The position numbers were made by a program, and so were the translations under genes. This document shows positions 39,303 to 46,040 of a stretch of 64,000 nucleotides of DNA, in pieces. The stretch covers positions 558,001 through 622,000 of the forward strand of contig NZ_CP053435.1 of assembly GCF_013127955.1 (NCBI RefSeq), in the 5' to 3' direction. Below the pieces are notes generated by a model. It worked only from the letters and a program-made list of their open reading frames with translations, was not told the origin of the DNA and searched no databases. The DNA comes from Spirosoma taeanense. GTDB lineage: Bacteria; Bacteroidota; Bacteroidia; Cytophagales; Spirosomataceae. Numbering within the stretch: position 1 is the stretch's first letter; each line of letters opens with the position of its first letter.

Positions 39303-39911
39303 TTACAGCACTCCTTCTTCGGTCAGGATGGTCGCTACATTCAATGTTACGTCGTCCATAACCGGAACCGTGGTATCCCAGTTAACCGTAATCCAGTTTT
39401 CGTCCTTTGTCGCTACCAAGACTTTTTTCGATTGAGTCGTAATCCAGATAACCCGCTCTGTACCAAAGTCGAGCATGGTCTGTGTTTTCTGATAAACGTA
39501 ATCCTGCTCCATCGCCGGAAAGGCTTCCAGATCGACCTTTATATCAACCTCGACAACAACCTTTGGCGCAACGTCAAAAAACTTTCCTTTGATGGTTACC
39601 TTGTCCTTCTCATAGAAGGCGATGTCATTGGCCAGATTACCGCCTAATTGGATATGTAAACCAGGTTCATTTGTGACTACCCAATAGGCTTTGCGATCAG
39701 TATGGTTTCCCAGATACAGATACAAAGCAGATACAATAATTGCCTGTAGGTCGCTACAACCCATGATTTCGCCGGGGGTTTTACGTTTAGCCAAAACATC
39801 TTTATAGCCCTTGCGGTACAAGGGTTTCCCGTTGAGTGTCTCATAAATCAGGTAGGATGGAATGGCCTGTTGTGCTGCTTCAGGTTCCATCGTTGTTAAT
39901 TCTGCTGCCAT
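39303..39911 (-). CDS. Uma2-type restriction-endonuclease-fold protein
   Basis: 202 residues from the ATG at 39911 (MAAELTTMEPEAAQQ), which has AAGG upstream; an ATG at 39938 is possible. The Uma2/DUF820 core shows GEIMGCSDLQAIIVSALYLY, GGNLANDIAFYEKDK (catalytic Asp), VAPKVVVEVDIKVDLEA (E-x-x-K type) and DYVYQKTQTMLDFGTERVIW. Uma2 proteins have a PD-(D/E)xK fold, are abundant in cyanobacteria and Cytophagales, and their target is unknown. It follows the cystathionine synthase gene by about 71 bases. Confidence 0.85.
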   Translation of the reverse strand: MAAELTTMEPEAAQQAIPSYLIYETLNGKPLYRKGYKDVLAKRKTPGEIMGCSDLQAIIVSALYLYLGNHTDRKAYWVVTNEPGLHIQLGGNLANDIAFYEKDKVTIKGKFFDVAPKVVVEVDIKVDLEAFPAMEQDYVYQKTQTMLDFGTERVIWITTQSKKVLVATKDENWITVNWDTTVPVMDDVTLNVATILTEEGVL

Positions 39912-39982
39912 AGCCTTACGATTTAAGCCAATATACAAAGGTTTTGGACACTATAACGCGGACATCTCCGGTGTTATGTTGC

Positions 39983-41374
39983 TTAGTTCGTCATTGCAGC
40001 CAGCAAATCGGCCTGCGTAATGATGTGGATCTGCTCTTTCTCATCCCGGACGAGCAATGCTTTGTTTTCCCGGTCAATCAGCGACGAAAGCGCATCAATC
40101 GTGTTGTCTAAGCCGACAAATTTGAACGGCTTGTCCATGACTTCGCTGACGGGGTGATCTTTGACGGCCGGATCTTCGATGAGTCTGTTTAACACCGTCG
40201 AATCGGTCAGGCTGCCGACAATCTGGCCGCTCTCATCCGTAACTGGAATCTGCGAGATACCGTACCGATTCAGCACCTGAATGGCCTGACTGACCGAAAC
40301 GCCCGAGCCGATTGTGGTGAGCTGCGATTGCCGATTCGTCGCCCCGCCATTTTTGCTGTGAACGATATCGCGGGCCGTCTTGAACGCGCGGTCTTCCAGA
40401 AAGCCGTGGTCCTTCATCCAGGCGTCGTTGTAAATCTTGGCGAGATAACGCGTACCGTGGTCGGGCAGCAGAATTACCATGACATCATCGTCGGTGAGGT
40501 TGTCTTTAGCCCACTCCAGGGCTCCGTGTACCGCCGTACCGCACGACCAGCCGACAAACAAGCCTTCTTCGCGCGAGAGCCGCCGGGCCATGATGGCCGC
40601 GTCCTTATCGGTGACTTTAATAAACTGGTCGATGACGTCGAAGTCTACGTTCTGCGGGAGGATATCCTCGCCGATGCCTTCGGTCAGGTAAGGATAGATT
40701 TCGCCGGGGTCGAAAATGCCGGTTTCCTTATATTTCTTGAACACCGAGCCGAAGGTGTCCAGACCCAGTGTGAACAGATCCGGGTTCTTCTCTTTCAGAA
40801 ATTTCGCCGTACCGCTGATAGTACCACCCGTACCGACGCTGGCCGCAAAGTGGGTAATCCTGCCGTCGGTATCCCGCCAGATTTCGGGGCCGGTGGTGTC
40901 GTAGTGCGCAGCCGTATTCGACAGATTGTCGTACTGATTGGGATACAGTGAGTTGGGAATGTCGCGGTTAAGTTTCTTCGCGACTGAGTAATATGAGCGC
41001 GGGTCGTCGGGCGCGACATTCGTTGGGCAGACAACGACTTCAGCGCCTACCGCCCGCAGAATATCAATCTTTTCCTTAGACTGTTTATCGGCCATCGTAA
41101 AGATGCACTTGTAGCCTTTGGCAATGGCTGTTAGGGCCAGACCGAAGCCTGTGTTACCGCTGGTGCCTTCGATAATCGTGCCGCCGGGTTTGAGAATTCC
41201 CTGTTTTTCGGCGTCCTCGATCATGCGAATAGCGATGCGATCTTTCACCGAGTTGCCGGGGTTGAAGTACTCGACTTTCGCCAGAATTGTGCCCCGAATC
41301 CCTTTTGTTACGTGATTCAGCTTGACTAAGGGCGTATTGCCAATGGTATCGACGATGGTGTTGTAGTAGTTCAT
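39983..41374 (-). CDS. Cystathionine beta-synthase with regulatory CBS pair
   Basis: 463 residues. PLP domain (1-320): Lys44 in NPGNSVKDR binds PLP, GTSGNTG (about 70-76) binds the carboxylate, and SVGTGGT the phosphate. Two CBS repeats (about 345-460) follow: VSQAIQVLNRYGISQIPVTD and ALSSLIDRENKALLVRD. It condenses serine and homocysteine to cystathionine, or acts as a cysteine synthase-like enzyme. Its start overlaps the stop of the TOPRIM-like gene by 4 bases (41371-41374), tying it to the upstream run. Confidence 0.93.
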   Translation of the reverse strand: MNYYNTIVDTIGNTPLVKLNHVTKGIRGTILAKVEYFNPGNSVKDRIAIRMIEDAEKQGILKPGGTIIEGTSGNTGFGLALTAIAKGYKCIFTMADKQSKEKIDILRAVGAEVVVCPTNVAPDDPRSYYSVAKKLNRDIPNSLYPNQYDNLSNTAAHYDTTGPEIWRDTDGRITHFAASVGTGGTISGTAKFLKEKNPDLFTLGLDTFGSVFKKYKETGIFDPGEIYPYLTEGIGEDILPQNVDFDVIDQFIKVTDKDAAIMARRLSREEGLFVGWSCGTAVHGALEWAKDNLTDDDVMVILLPDHGTRYLAKIYNDAWMKDHGFLEDRAFKTARDIVHSKNGGATNRQSQLTTIGSGVSVSQAIQVLNRYGISQIPVTDESGQIVGSLTDSTVLNRLIEDPAVKDHPVSEVMDKPFKFVGLDNTIDALSSLIDRENKALLVRDEKEQIHIITQADLLAAMTN

Positions 41375-42000
41375 GACGGTTGAGTTTTGTTGTACTGGTT
41401 CAGGAAGCCGGTCACCTGCTTATGAAAATGAGCGAAGCTGCGAGATTGTTTAGCCAGTTCATCGAAGTCTGCTCTTTCAGCAATGGCCTGAGCTATTCGA
41501 TCCATATTTGGTCCGCTATTGTTCCCTTTATAGAGAAGCCGCTTTAGTTCGTCCTGCGGTTTGCCTTCTACACCATTTACCGCAAATCTGGATGCCACAC
41601 CAGTTTTATACGCTTGGTATGACAGCCAGTGCTCAATGGCTTGAACGGGTACGAAATGCACAATTTGTTGGCCGTATTTTTTATAATTTTCCCCTAGTGC
41701 ATTCAGAATAATTTTGCACTCTGCAGCGTGTTTTGCCTGCTCAGGCTCGTGGTCAGCAACGTCTAAATCAACACCTACTATTATGAGTTGATGGTTTTGT
41801 TGTATAGCCAAAGAGCAGAAATCGGCGGCCTCTTTTAAAACCTTCGATTTGCCAGCGTCTCCACCTTTGAATCCAATACGGCTACGAATCGCCTTAACTC
41901 CGTATTGAGAAGAAATCAGTTTTAGATAAGTTGGTATAAATGCATATTCAGCGTATCCCTCTGCTATAAGCGTGTATTCTAGCCGGTTCTCGTGCTTCAT
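41371..42000 (-). CDS. TOPRIM-like protein (DUF4276 / RloB type), probable effector
   Basis: 209 residues. The opening YTLIAEGYAEYAF (Glu14) and the strand HQLIIVGVDLDVAD (Asp78-x-Asp80) give the metal-binding E...DxD pattern of TOPRIM folds; the later VQAIEHWLSYQAY resembles the IExWLl block of DUF4276/RloB proteins. It overlaps the AAA ATPase gene by 4 bases, so the two are translationally coupled. ATPase plus TOPRIM pairs such as AbiL and PARIS act as anti-phage systems. It is AT-rich relative to its neighbours. Exact family and nuclease activity not proven. Confidence 0.75.
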   Translation of the reverse strand: MKHENRLEYTLIAEGYAEYAFIPTYLKLISSQYGVKAIRSRIGFKGGDAGKSKVLKEAADFCSLAIQQNHQLIIVGVDLDVADHEPEQAKHAAECKIILNALGENYKKYGQQIVHFVPVQAIEHWLSYQAYKTGVASRFAVNGVEGKPQDELKRLLYKGNNSGPNMDRIAQAIAERADFDELAKQSRSFAHFHKQVTGFLNQYNKTQPS

Positions 42001-43112
42001 AGCTCATCTGCTGGTACACCGCCGATTAATCCATACATCCATCTTTCACCTAAGTCAGCTGTGAAATCTATTTTTTTCAAACCAAGCTTCTCGCTTTCGC
42101 GATGCGATGGCTCAATAATATCTTTTCGAAGGTTTCGAACTGTGGTTGCACCAGTTTCTTCATCTTTATCAAATACAAAGACTGATTCAGGTATTGCCGA
42201 AAAGGCGTTAACAACATGCTCATTGTGTGTAGTCATGATGATTTGCACCCCCTTTTCCTCTGCTAACGCGAAAACCAGTTTCATCACCTCCCAGATTCTT
42301 CGTGGGTGGATACCCCGTTCAGGTTCCTCCAGTAGAAGTAACCTTGGAGGATTAGGTTGATTAACAATACATAGTAAGATCAAAAAATACAATACACCCT
42401 CTGACACTTCACTTGCCCAGTAACTTGCTTCATGTTTATCAAAAAACCTTAACCCAAGCATATTCTCACCCTCAACAGGAGGTGTTCTAAACCGGGCTAT
42501 TTCAGGAACACATCTTGACAGGTCGGATTGTATCTTGACAGAATTTTCTTCGTGATTATTGAAAATTGAGAAATAAAAGGGAATTAGGTTCGAACCATCA
42601 GGTGCTAATTCTACATTGCTACCTGATAATTTGGCTGCATGGATCAGTTTAGAGGGGTCTGGCCGGAAGATTTTTGTTCTAACAAAATCGAAAAATTCTC
42701 GTCTATGCCCACCTTCAACTTTACCTTCATTTACTATTCCACTATGGGTTGTAAACCAATCACTAATGGTGCTTTTGACTTCATATGAATTATTTTGTTC
42801 CTCAACTATATAGCTTTGATTGAAGTGATATATATCATATCCATCTTCATTATAATTAGTAGCTATAAAGCCTGAAGAATCAGGTACAAATTCAAACTTG
42901 CTTGTTAAATCAATCCTTTGGTGTTTATAGCTAATCGACTCAAGATCAGCAATACGGTGCAAGTCTAGCCCACGTGCTGTAAAAAACTCCAGCGCCTTCA
43001 GGAAATTTGTTTTGCCTGAGTTGTTCGGGCCGATGAGTAAGTTGACTTTTTGCAGGTCGAGCGTTACGTCTTTCAGGCTCTTGAAGTTCTGGATGGATAC
43101 GCGCTTCAACAT
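41997..43112 (-). CDS. AAA ATPase of OLD/SMC type (AAA_21), defence-like partner
   Basis: 371 residues. N-terminus IQNFKSLKDVTLDLQKVNLL with Walker A GPNNSGKTN at 28-36; C-terminal Walker B LLLLEEPERGIHPRR and H-loop IIMTTHNEHVVNAF, the layout of AAA_15/AAA_21 proteins with a short middle coiled region. No nuclease domain is attached, unlike full OLD proteins; the separate TOPRIM-like gene downstream (4-base overlap) fills that role. The gene is strongly AT-rich (42.1-43.1 kb), unlike the flanking peptidase, a sign of transfer. 34 bases separate it from the M1 peptidase gene. Confidence 0.85.
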   Translation of the reverse strand: MLKRVSIQNFKSLKDVTLDLQKVNLLIGPNNSGKTNFLKALEFFTARGLDLHRIADLESISYKHQRIDLTSKFEFVPDSSGFIATNYNEDGYDIYHFNQSYIVEEQNNSYEVKSTISDWFTTHSGIVNEGKVEGGHRREFFDFVRTKIFRPDPSKLIHAAKLSGSNVELAPDGSNLIPFYFSIFNNHEENSVKIQSDLSRCVPEIARFRTPPVEGENMLGLRFFDKHEASYWASEVSEGVLYFLILLCIVNQPNPPRLLLLEEPERGIHPRRIWEVMKLVFALAEEKGVQIIMTTHNEHVVNAFSAIPESVFVFDKDEETGATTVRNLRKDIIEPSHRESEKLGLKKIDFTADLGERWMYGLIGGVPADEL

Positions 43113-43146: not shown

Positions 43147-44835
43147 TTACTTGCCCATTTGGGTACGGCTCGACGCTTCGGCCCGCATCAGTACGGTATT
43201 GTCGGGGTCGATGACGATAGTAGCCGGTTTTGCCGACACCGGTATGGTAAACGACTGCGCCTGCTGGTTCATAATCAGCTTGCCGCTGCGCGACAATTCG
43301 CGGCCGCTCGCGTTGCGAACGCTGAACGTAAGCGGCAACACAAAGACCGTACCGGTACGCTGAATCTGCCGAACGTCGATAACCAGTTCCTTCTTGGCCG
43401 CGTCGTAACTCGATTCCCAGACCAGATCAGGGTAACCGGGCTGGTAGAGCCACTGCTGGAAAAACTGCCCCAGCTTTTTCCCCGAAACGCTTTCCATTAC
43501 CGACTGAAAATCGCTGGTTTGGGCGTTAGCGTTGCGAAACTTTTCATAATAGGCCCGAATGCCTTTCCAGAAAATGTCGTCGCCGACTTCGTGGCGGAGC
43601 ATGTGCAGAATCCAGCCGCCTTTCTGATAGGAAAGCGGGTTCAGTAGGTCCATCAGGTTCGTCGTGGTCGAATCCACAACAGTGCCTTTGGGCTTCAGGG
43701 CCGTATAGCGGAATATTTGGTTTTTGTTCTGATTCAGCACGGCGTTGAGGGTATCGCGGCCGTAGGCGTGTTCCAGATATAGTCCTGAAAAATACGTCGC
43801 GAAGCCTTCGCTCAGCCAAAGCTGCGACCAGTCGCTTTCGGTCGCCGAGTTGCCGAACCACTGATGCGCAATCTCGTGCGCCAGCAGGGCCTCTACGTCC
43901 GAGTCTTTATGACCGACAATGACTTTCTCATTGTAGAAAATACAACTGGCGTTTTCCATGCCACCAAAAACCGTGGTTGATTCAACGTTTGCCAGCTTTT
44001 CGTACGAATAGGGGCCAATCCGTTCAATGAAATATTGCAGAATCTCCTTCGCCGGCCGGTAGTCAATGAACCCTTTCTGGCTGTCGTTGGGGTAAAGCCA
44101 GCTTTGTACGGGTACCCCGCCCACTGCGCCAACGTCTTCGACTGCGAAGCGGGCCGCCCCAATGACCATCACTTTCGTTGGGATGGGTGTACTTTCCTGC
44201 CAGCGCGTCAGCTTGCGGGGTGTTCGGCCGCCCGCGACCGCACTTTCGCCCAGCAACTTTCCGTTGGCAATGACGCGATAGGTAGCGGGCGTATTAACCG
44301 TAAAGGAGCAGGTCGCCTTGTCGGATGGGTGATCAACAACGGGCAAATAGTTACGGGCGTTGTTGGGCCAGTTGTCGCCGAAGAACGTCCGGTCGCCGTA
44401 CTTATTCCGGCTGATGATGAGTCCACGGGCGGGTGTACCCTCGTAACGGATTGTAACTTCCGTCGGCTGGTTGGGAGCGGGAGGGAGATTGATAAACACC
44501 CGGTCGTTACGGTGGCTGAACGGGGCGGTTTTGCCATCGGCCAGACGCACTTCCCGCACCCGCATTCCTAATGTAGCGTCGGCGCGTTGGCCGGAGTCAG
44601 GCCGGGCCGCGACGAGGTCGAACCAAACCGTCTGGCGATCGTCGGCGCGGGTAAAGCGGATGGTTGTTTCACCCTGAATTTGGTTGGTTGAGTCGCTCAG
44701 CGTGAGCGAGAATGCATAGTGCTGAACGTCGACGCCTGGCTGCGTATACCGCGCCAGATTACCCGGAAACTGGGCGTAGGCAGCGGGAATTAAAAACAGG
44801 AAAAGAAATAGGTTTTTCAAACGTAAATGCCTCAT
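43147..44835 (-). CDS. M1-family metallopeptidase, secreted
   Basis: 562 residues from ATG at 44835, which shares one base with the permease stop (TAATG); the longer frame to 44940 lies inside that gene. Signal peptide LKNLFLFLFLIPAAYAQ. M1 features: GGMENA substrate loop, zinc motif HEIAHQWFGN (H-E-x2-H) and downstream WLSEGFATYF giving the third ligand Glu. The C-terminal part has a beta-sandwich. It removes N-terminal residues from peptides outside the cytoplasm. It is translationally coupled to the MacB-type permease. Confidence 0.93.
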   Translation of the reverse strand: MRHLRLKNLFLFLFLIPAAYAQFPGNLARYTQPGVDVQHYAFSLTLSDSTNQIQGETTIRFTRADDRQTVWFDLVAARPDSGQRADATLGMRVREVRLADGKTAPFSHRNDRVFINLPPAPNQPTEVTIRYEGTPARGLIISRNKYGDRTFFGDNWPNNARNYLPVVDHPSDKATCSFTVNTPATYRVIANGKLLGESAVAGGRTPRKLTRWQESTPIPTKVMVIGAARFAVEDVGAVGGVPVQSWLYPNDSQKGFIDYRPAKEILQYFIERIGPYSYEKLANVESTTVFGGMENASCIFYNEKVIVGHKDSDVEALLAHEIAHQWFGNSATESDWSQLWLSEGFATYFSGLYLEHAYGRDTLNAVLNQNKNQIFRYTALKPKGTVVDSTTTNLMDLLNPLSYQKGGWILHMLRHEVGDDIFWKGIRAYYEKFRNANAQTSDFQSVMESVSGKKLGQFFQQWLYQPGYPDLVWESSYDAAKKELVIDVRQIQRTGTVFVLPLTFSVRNASGRELSRSGKLIMNQQAQSFTIPVSAKPATIVIDPDNTVLMRAEASSRTQMGK

Positions 44836-46040
44836 TACTCTTTGGCTAATGTCCGGGAAATATTCATGCGGTAAACCCCCAGCGCAGGCAGGGCGGCCGC
44901 CAGCAAGCCAATCAGAATGGCTACACCCAATAAAGCCCATTCGTCGGGAAGAATACCGAACGCGGCCAGATCGTAATGATATTCAGAGGAGACACTGCTC
45001 GAAAACAGCCATAGACCCACGCGGCTCAACAGAATACCCAGCACAAAGCCAATCAGAGCCAGCACGAGCCCTTCGAGCAGCAGCATGCCGAATAACTGCG
45101 CCCGGGTTGCACCCATCGACAGCATCAGCGCCATTTCATAACGGCGTTCTTTCAGGGAGTTATAAAGCGATACAAACACGCTGATACCTGAAATTAGCAT
45201 AATCACAATTGCCAGCCCACGCAGCGTTTCAACGCCTACACCCAGCAGCGAAAACAGACGGTTTATTTCGATGTTCGGCAGGGCCGCCTGTAGTTTCGAG
45301 TTCGTGTTGATGCCTCGCGCCAGCATCATCCCCAGCGGGTTCCGGAACTTGATGAGCATACTCGTAATCTCGTGCGGCTCATCTTCATGCTCTTCGCCTT
45401 CAGGTGCTTCCTCACCTTCGTGGCCATGATCGTGGATGGCCCACACGCTCGACAGCGGGGTCAGAATAAGCTGGTCGGCAACCGTATTGCTTCGATTCAG
45501 AATCCCAACAACTTTGTATTTAGTATCGGCATGGGCTTCACCCTCGGCGTCCAGACCGTGTGAGCCGCTAAACGTATCGCCCAGCTTCAGACCGGCCGCT
45601 TCAGCTACGCGGGGACCAATCACGGTTTCCAGATTCTGCTGAAACAGCCGCCCCTGGCCAACGGTCGCGCCAAAATGATCAAGGTATTTTTTGTTAGTTC
45701 CGATAATCCGGAACGACTGGTAGTTGTCGCCCATCGCCAGCGGGATGGCGGTTTGAATCATGGGGTTACGTGTCAGTCGGTCGGCTTCGTCAAGAGGAAT
45801 ATTGCCCGTCGGCGAATCAATCTGATAGATACTCGACAGAATCAATTGCAACGGGCTACCCTTCGCGCCCAGAACCATATCAATCCCTTTGATATTCTTC
45901 CGGAACTGGTCGTCGAGCTGCTTGTTGAGCAGGAGCAGCAACGAGATAATGGTGATGCCAAAGGTCATGAGCAGTCCGCTCAGAAAGCTGCTCAGCGGTT
46001 TGTCTTTAAGGTTACTCCAACTGATTCGGAACAGGTTCAT
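44835..46040 (-). CDS. FtsX/MacB-type ABC permease with His/Glu-rich loop
   Basis: 401 residues. One N-terminal helix (about 15-37), a large periplasmic MacB_PCD domain, and three C-terminal helices (LRGLAIVIMLISGISVFVSL onward) in the FtsX pattern. The periplasmic domain has a His/Glu/Gly-rich insert near residue 200 (HDHGHEGEEAPEGEEHEDEP), which could bind metal. No ATP-binding gene lies beside it, although such permeases need one; the partner may be encoded elsewhere. It is coupled to the M1 peptidase gene through a TAATG overlap. Confidence 0.88.
   Translation of the reverse strand: MNLFRISWSNLKDKPLSSFLSGLLMTFGITIISLLLLLNKQLDDQFRKNIKGIDMVLGAKGSPLQLILSSIYQIDSPTGNIPLDEADRLTRNPMIQTAIPLAMGDNYQSFRIIGTNKKYLDHFGATVGQGRLFQQNLETVIGPRVAEAAGLKLGDTFSGSHGLDAEGEAHADTKYKVVGILNRSNTVADQLILTPLSSVWAIHDHGHEGEEAPEGEEHEDEPHEITSMLIKFRNPLGMMLARGINTNSKLQAALPNIEINRLFSLLGVGVETLRGLAIVIMLISGISVFVSLYNSLKERRYEMALMLSMGATRAQLFGMLLLEGLVLALIGFVLGILLSRVGLWLFSSSVSSEYHYDLAAFGILPDEWALLGVAILIGLLAAALPALGVYRMNISRTLAKE

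Follow-up and report, generated by a model that had tools for sequence, protein, structure and literature searches.

A gene pair with exchanged modules at a largely fixed chromosomal site in Spirosoma: a candidate two-part conflict system

Introduction

Why would two overlapping genes, set among housekeeping genes at one chromosomal site, differ between related species by whole modules? The question is raised by a gene pair in Spirosoma taeanense, encoded in a stretch of 64,000 nucleotides of contig NZ_CP053435.1 (positions 558,001 to 622,000 of the forward strand; this whole stretch is referred to as the window, and coordinates are counted from its first letter). Gene A (41997-43112, minus strand) encodes a 371-residue ATPase of the ABC/OLD type (AAA_15/AAA_21) without a nuclease domain, the proposed sensor and switch. 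Gene B (41371-42000, minus strand) encodes a 209-residue DUF4276/HEC-01B-like protein, the proposed TOPRIM-type nuclease effector. The pair is flanked by a cystathionine beta-synthase (CBS) gene (39983-41374, minus strand), whose product has PALP and CBS domains, and by an M1 peptidase gene (43147-44940, minus strand; open reading frame as listed, the true start may be later). The former marks the site in four genera, the latter is the neighbor on the other side within the genus, and we regard both as context, with CBS outside the system. In the window, open reading frames overlap by four bases at both joints, A/B and B/CBS. A first-pass annotation of this stretch had placed these four genes, both overlaps and the Walker, IEHWL and E...DxD motifs, and all of these proved exact.

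We find that the site is largely fixed but that its alleles are mosaics with exchanged parts. Judging from sequence comparison, A and B probably constitute a two-part conflict system, most likely directed against phages, in which A would be a sensor and switch that holds nuclease B and alleles are exchanged at a fixed locus.

Modular divergence of gene A

Our genus sample comprises 36 Spirosoma genomes, one genome per species. Segments were compared in 24 Spirosoma genomes, of which 23 have a usable A; pairs of genomes are not independent, so that the values obtained are descriptions and not exact tests.

Constant and highly variable segments alternate along A. Codons 1-45 (42978-43112, minus strand) form a constant anchor that carries Walker A, with a median protein identity of 0.93 between species and a lowered silent divergence. 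Codons 46-232 (42417-42977, minus strand) form a hypervariable, swapped module, the proposed sensor, which we divide into V (codons 46-150) and M (codons 151-232); median identity is 0.12 over residues 46-146 and 0.47-0.51 over residues 147-232. Between the swapped modules sits the SEG/Walker B block (codons 233-281; 42270-42416, minus strand), near-invariant as protein (0.90 over residues 251-280). The C-terminal module (codons 282-371; 42000-42269, minus strand), which includes the H-loop and co-varies with B, is the proposed B-docking part, with medians of 0.68 over residues 281-331 and 0.46 over residues 332-371. Between Spirosoma species the median along B is 0.22-0.55, and segments across CBS, RsgA and M1 reach 0.68-0.94 (CBS alone 0.88-0.94).

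The anchor stands out at silent sites. Four-fold differences in A codons 1-45, pooled over 276 pairs of 24 genomes (the A row of G027 is excluded from this analysis), amount to 0.37, a value below those of all 324 overlapping 45-codon control windows in CBS, RsgA, M1 and KdtA (minimum 0.42, median 0.58). Silent divergence of this segment is below that of CBS in 251 of the 276 pairs. The A C-terminus and B show four-fold differences of 0.61-0.70.

The pair is AT-rich, as the first-pass annotation had stated: GC content is 0.36-0.46 over A and B, compared with mostly 0.49-0.59 in surrounding windows. Median GC is 0.452 in A codons 1-45, 0.337 in codons 46-150 and 0.412 in the rest of A; in B it is 0.418 without the last 25 residues and 0.453 within them, and it is 0.515 in CBS and 0.523 in M1. 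A gene for a weakly Uma2-like protein (39303-39938, minus strand; PF05685 below cut-off), which adjoins CBS and is found in some relatives only, is likewise AT-rich (0.45-0.46 at 39.3-39.9 kb).

Allele replacement and transfer

Pairs of genomes with similar flanks carry different modules inside A. Between G142 and G164, nucleotide identity is 95% in CBS, 94% in B and 86% in the A C-terminus, with 44% in V and 48% in M; between G004 and G027, the corresponding values are 93%, 95%, 97%, 39% and 48%. Since identity of 93-95% surrounds V and M with only 39-48% matching bases, these modules must have been replaced and not altered by point mutation. The sister species G025 and G026 have B in common (0.81-0.96 per 100-base window) and not V (0.37-0.46), and the sisters G035 and G026 have M in common (86%) and V loosely (59%), with a B of differing type (0.49-0.64). 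Four-fold sites of G059 and G094 differ at 0 of 83 positions in B and 2 of 38 in the A C-terminus, compared with 66 of 235 in CBS, which shows at least one recent movement of B between genomes.

The phylogenies differ accordingly in shape. A single branch sets off each of the four genera in the CBS tree, which has 45 rows and is limited to those genera that have CBS at this site. For the 26 Spirosoma rows among the 46 of the B tree, seven or more changes on starred branches are required, and monophyly of Spirosoma is rejected (the constraint costs 676 log units, p-AU 7e-35). The two supertypes of B are about 25% identical and both are common to several genera, indicating that these alleles either predate the genera or have moved between them.

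Co-variation of the A C-terminus with B

Among 45 of the 46 A proteins, 28 V types can be distinguished at 45% identity. Ten of these have at least two members; four of the ten occur with both B supertypes and three cross genera. We then compared pairwise identities in 45 A-B pairs, G016 and G026 being excluded from the pair counts. The rank correlation between A C-terminus and B is 0.78 (p 0.001), that between M and B is 0.09 (p 0.009), and that between V and M is 0.33. Correlations with B for the segments labeled C, W, M and V are 0.82, 0.54, 0.37 and 0.15 within B supertype 1 (n=25), and 0.53, 0.13, -0.04 and 0.11 within supertype 2 (n=20).

A sliding window along A locates the change: the correlation with B stays at 0.03-0.11 as far as residue 270 (0.10 at residues 241-270), 0.29 at residues 261-290, and 0.55-0.72 from residue 281 on (0.72 at residues 281-310). 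This break near residue 281 supports a division of roles between V/M and C. The H-loop letters track the B supertype in all 45 typed pairs, with HNE in supertype 2 (20/20) and HSP, HSE or HHP in supertype 1 (25/25).

Distribution of the pair and fixity of the site

Intact A and B are encoded in 25 of the 36 genus genomes, and in 22 of these the pair directly adjoins CBS. In G004, G020 and G027 it adjoins M1, and CBS is 11-12 kb away after rearrangement. In the stretches L084, L087 and L099, from three related species, the CBS, RsgA and Kdo transferase genes lie 11-12 kb off, beyond M1, the pair having kept M1 and lost its CBS neighbor. One gene is broken in two genomes (A split in G016, B broken in G026), remnants only are found in four (G005, G008, G011, G018), neither gene is at the site in three (G001, G010, G029), and the site is unreadable in two (G021, G024). 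Thus the pair has been lost or broken in 9 of the 34 genomes with a readable site, and these losses and remnants indicate that it is dispensable. What is left in G011 are the conserved ends, residues 2-37 of A and 142-204 of B.

The first-pass annotation had further suggested that CBS may share a transcript with the pair. The four-base B/CBS overlap occurs in only 7 of the 22 CBS-adjoining intact pairs. B and CBS lie no further than 5 bases from each other in 10 of the 22 and are separated by 122-936 bases in 12; the coupling to CBS is therefore not conserved, and a lasting link between CBS and the pair is not supported.

In a family-wide sample, A is matched at 1e-20 in 56 of 200 genomes and 10 of 36 genera, some of these matches being distant paralogues. 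A adjoins B in all 20 non-genus genomes that were fetched (of 30 with a match), and in 11 of these the pair lies beside CBS (six genomes of g37, two of g39, three of g24). In the remaining nine the fetched stretch contains no CBS gene; for two of them it is a short contig (L140 and L142, the latter ending 458 bases after B). In other genera this pair seems to occupy sites of their own: one, next to a nucleoside symporter gene, is common to two g52 genomes (L145, L146), and another, near an SdrD_B-domain gene, to two g29 genomes (L136, L141). At greater distances B occurs sporadically: counting genus members, the order sample (291 genomes) has it in 24 and the phylum sample (395 genomes) in 4.

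The same ECF sigma factor gene (185 residues, 91% identical) is inserted with unassigned companions in two species, in the M1/A gap of G003 and the B/CBS gap of G016 (L039:10318-10875 and L086:10417-10974). In G005 (L096:4835-9055 and L152:7211-7366) the site is broken: an integrase and a DUF5906 gene lie near CBS, and remnants of B adjoin CBS and M1, each on a contig of its own. A conserved gene of 131-189 residues, not present in the window, is found next to CBS, on the other strand, in 15 genus genomes, including genomes without the pair. Its copy at L034:7371-7778 has no Pfam match at 0.01, and further copies, 56-81% identical to that one, are open reading frames in L037, L038, L043, L044, L045, L048, L050, L051, L085, L088, L089, L090, L095 and L098.

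Family assignment and conserved residues

A is matched by AAA_15 (E 3e-27, 96.6 bits) and AAA_21 (E 3.4e-23, 83.6 bits), and the Pfam search found no nuclease domain in it. Its best match among PADLOC models is HEC-01A (4.5e-38, 129 bits), followed by AriA (1.4e-27), AbiLi (1e-23) and mad3 (2e-19); Old is also matched, further than HEC-01A. The HEC-01A model PDLC04175 matches 16 of 16 aligned A members. A carries Walker A GPNNSGKTN and Walker B LLLLEEPERG, and K34, E262, E263 and H296 are invariant in 46 of 46 aligned relatives.

The assignment of B is weaker. The first-pass annotation had likened it to DUF4276 and RloB. DUF4276 (PF14103) is indeed matched, over profile positions 1-191 of 192 (E 1.3e-4), but at 22.7 bits B stays under the gathering cut-off of 30.2 and cannot be counted as a member by that score; neither RloB nor DUF4435 matches B at E up to 1. 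DUF4276 matches 5 of 16 B members at E up to 0.1. The best PADLOC match of B is a weak one to HEC-01B (8.6e-6, 23.7 bits), the model of which (PDLC04210) matches 7 of 16 B members at E up to 0.1; mad4 is also matched, weakly (7.9e-4). No AbiLii match to B was found at E up to 1, the presence of an AbiLii model in the library not having been verified.

B contains the motifs IEHWL, E14 and D78-L-D80. The putative metal ligands Glu14 (41959-41961, minus strand) and Asp78-x-Asp80 (41761-41769, minus strand) are invariant (E, D, D) in all 46 aligned B proteins, some pairs of which are only about 23% identical. The conserved C-terminal block QSRSFAHFHKQV (41413-41448, minus strand) has S188, F189, F192 and H193 invariant in 46 of 46. 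A conserved Glu together with DxD is the signature of TOPRIM. The invariance of the Walker and H-loop residues of A and of E14 and D78xD80 of B suggests that the ATPase is active and that B is a metal enzyme. The predicted structure of B is of moderate quality (pLDDT 66, pTM 0.70); its strand order fits TOPRIM, with E14 after strand 1 and DxD after the third strand. The TOPRIM pattern claimed for B in the first-pass annotation is conserved as a pattern; the fold itself is putative, no significant match having come from the structure search (see below). The two-gene ATPase and TOPRIM-like arrangement that it described agrees with the nearest models of A (HEC-01A, AriA, AbiLi) and with the retention of the pair in relatives.

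Genomic neighborhood and additional copies

According to Pfam, the window neighbors of the pair are housekeeping genes: CBS, RsgA, Kdo transferase, porphobilinogen deaminase, a GNAT protein, FolB, bacilliredoxin, Hsp20, M1 peptidase and an FtsX-like permease. A scan of viral contigs, in which A and not B was searched, found no relative of A. The V+M peptide of the window matches once each in 25 of the 36 genus genomes, always within the A gene of the locus. No second V+M copy that could act as a silent donor was found in the own genome (G000), a search that silent modules of other V types would escape. Elsewhere in G000, A has one short N-terminal match and a distant paralogue of 29% identity (G000:C1:2370347-2371255, L101). 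No reverse transcriptase (PF00078) was found in the G000 genome, the same search being positive in 3 of 14 controls.

Proposed function and alternative explanations

We propose that V and M sense, that C docks and that B is a nuclease. These roles are suggested by likeness to PARIS, because in that system AriA holds AriB until a trigger releases it, upon which AriB cleaves tRNA (PMC11455837; excerpts of PMC9122126 and PMC12409363 give the same model). The variable middle of A (codons 46-232) would recognize a trigger made by the invader, and the C-terminal part of A, as the docking surface, would keep B inactive until then. Recognition would lead to an ATP-dependent rearrangement of A by which B is freed or activated. 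B, as a metal-dependent TOPRIM-like nuclease, may then halt the cell or destroy the nucleic acid of the invader, presumably a phage. The locus would stay at one chromosomal site, with sensor and effector alleles swapped independently between species, most likely by homologous recombination that makes use of the flanking genes and of A's constant first codons, and with selection as the probable driver of the exchange.

A fixed site with exchanged mosaic alleles is what a conflict locus under diversifying selection is expected to show, and a metabolic operon is not. Several observations weigh against our proposal. The Walker B block is as divergent at silent sites (0.64-0.69) as any other segment, so that its constancy as protein reflects selection; low silent divergence is confined to codons 1-45, and only the start of A therefore argues for a DNA joint shared recently. 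The correlation between V and B over the 45 pairs is small but not zero (0.06, p 0.038), and the value for M within supertype 1 means that the middle of A is not fully free of B there. Foldseek with the B model returned no match at E up to 0.001, and among the 50 matches listed none is named TOPRIM; a B profile likewise found no match among solved structures, and the predicted structure of A is unusable (pLDDT 42). Of the ten window neighbors only the FtsX-like permease has a PADLOC match at 1e-6, to the LolE-type membrane part of a CARF model, which we read as shared permease sequence (LolE/FtsX). None of ten chosen neighbors of the copies away from CBS matches PADLOC at 1e-6, and no copy of B on phages or plasmids was found at E 1e-5. 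Finally, an OLD-family enzyme, Cran1, is given a cell-cycle role in an excerpt of PMC12796447. The first-pass annotation had named beforehand, as grounds for giving up a defense role, a site fixed in relatives and free of defense neighbors; this is largely what we observe, yet some genus members lack an intact pair. In our view conflict is still favored by the replacement of modules, by losses and by alleles that cross genera, despite a fixed site without defense neighbors.

The sequence data do not name the opponent, and the locus could instead resemble a toxin-antitoxin system or serve to exclude plasmids or other elements, with A restraining a toxin B and diversification driven by mobile elements or competition between strains and not by phages. 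Two overlapping genes with allelic diversity, swaps and losses would be expected of such a locus too. We consider it unlikely, given that the nearest models carry the labels of defense systems and that B has no detected copy on plasmids or phages. Less probable still is a housekeeping role, in DNA metabolism or a stress function linked to CBS, in which case the middle of A would be changing rapidly because it is weakly constrained. Ordinary neighbors, the largely fixed place beside CBS and M1 in the genus and beside CBS in three other genera, and the Cran1 precedent speak for such a role; the G142/G164 comparison, in which V and M have been replaced and have not drifted next to nearly identical CBS DNA, and the loss or breakage of the pair in more than a quarter of the readable genus genomes speak against it. 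Repeated independent insertion, in which different pairs would arrive at a single attachment site on a mobile element or through site-specific integration, with no homologous exchange of parts, would fit the different pairs of sister species, the integrase gene and the B remnants on both sides of the broken site in G005, and the unconserved silent sites of the Walker B block, but is highly improbable, as modules inside the single gene A are exchanged separately and A codons 1-45 have a silent divergence below that of every control window of the flanking genes.

A broader and more tentative suggestion, to which we give somewhat less than even odds, is that the locus plays in bacteria the part of polymorphic immune-receptor loci. 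It would be fixed across genera, with trans-genus alleles of a two-gene sensor-nuclease system, sensor and docking modules that recombine independently, and an advantage of rare alleles against phages. One could then predict specificity and transfer it: codons 46-232 would carry the trigger response, and the A C-terminus together with B the effector. At this locus evolution seems to have run the domain swaps repeatedly, so that the presumed sensor and docking parts can be read from alleles of close species. Such an allele map can guide the finding of triggers and offers a clear test of modular immunity. It also suggests that a defense locus may persist on the chromosome as a set of alleles and need not be a passing island.

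Comparison with known systems

The nearest catalogued relative is HEC-01, a candidate two-gene system of PADLOC. A fits HEC-01A and the genes are adjacent as in HEC-01; the difference lies in B, which matches HEC-01B only weakly (8.6e-6). No paper on HEC-01 as a defense system was found in the open-license literature (titles and starts of abstracts). That literature also yielded no paper on DUF4276. With the search confined to open-license papers, such absence says little.

Kinship to defense pairs, as claimed in the first-pass annotation, holds for the ATPase, the nearest models of which are of defense type, and fails for membership in PARIS. The pair resembles PARIS (AriA/AriB, class 4 OLD) in its separate genes for an ABC ATPase and a TOPRIM-like nuclease, the latter putative in the case of B. 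The detection rule given in an excerpt of PMC9122126 asks for an ATPase with at least 32 bits to AAA_15 or at least 27 bits to AAA_21 and an adjacent DUF4435 of at least 27 bits. A passes the AriA scores (96.6 and 83.6 bits), and B, without a DUF4435 match at E up to 1, rules out membership. OLD nucleases of classes 1-3, in which TOPRIM is fused C-terminally to the ATPase, are ruled out by an A of 371 residues that is ATPase only and a B encoded separately. A and B recall mad3 (2e-19) and, weakly, mad4 (7.9e-4) of MADS; membership is excluded, as A scores 81.4 bits against an equivalog cut-off of 420 for MADS3. AbiL, the remaining two-gene system among these matches, consists of AbiLi and AbiLii.

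In terms of diversification, the locus resembles the conflict systems with retroelement-diversified sensors treated in an excerpt of PMC10907252, in that the putative sensor parts are variable. A diversity-generating retroelement is ruled out for A-B by a genome without reverse transcriptase (PF00078), and whole modules of A have been replaced and not point-mutated as in those sensors. The enteric immigration control region, as described in an excerpt of PMC12707154, carries variable defense genes between constant boundary genes and is discussed there in terms of negative frequency-dependent selection. The Spirosoma locus shares with it variable defense-type genes within constant borders at one site. 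Gene content of the enteric region varies widely, whereas in Spirosoma one ATPase-nuclease pair stays in place and its internal modules are exchanged.

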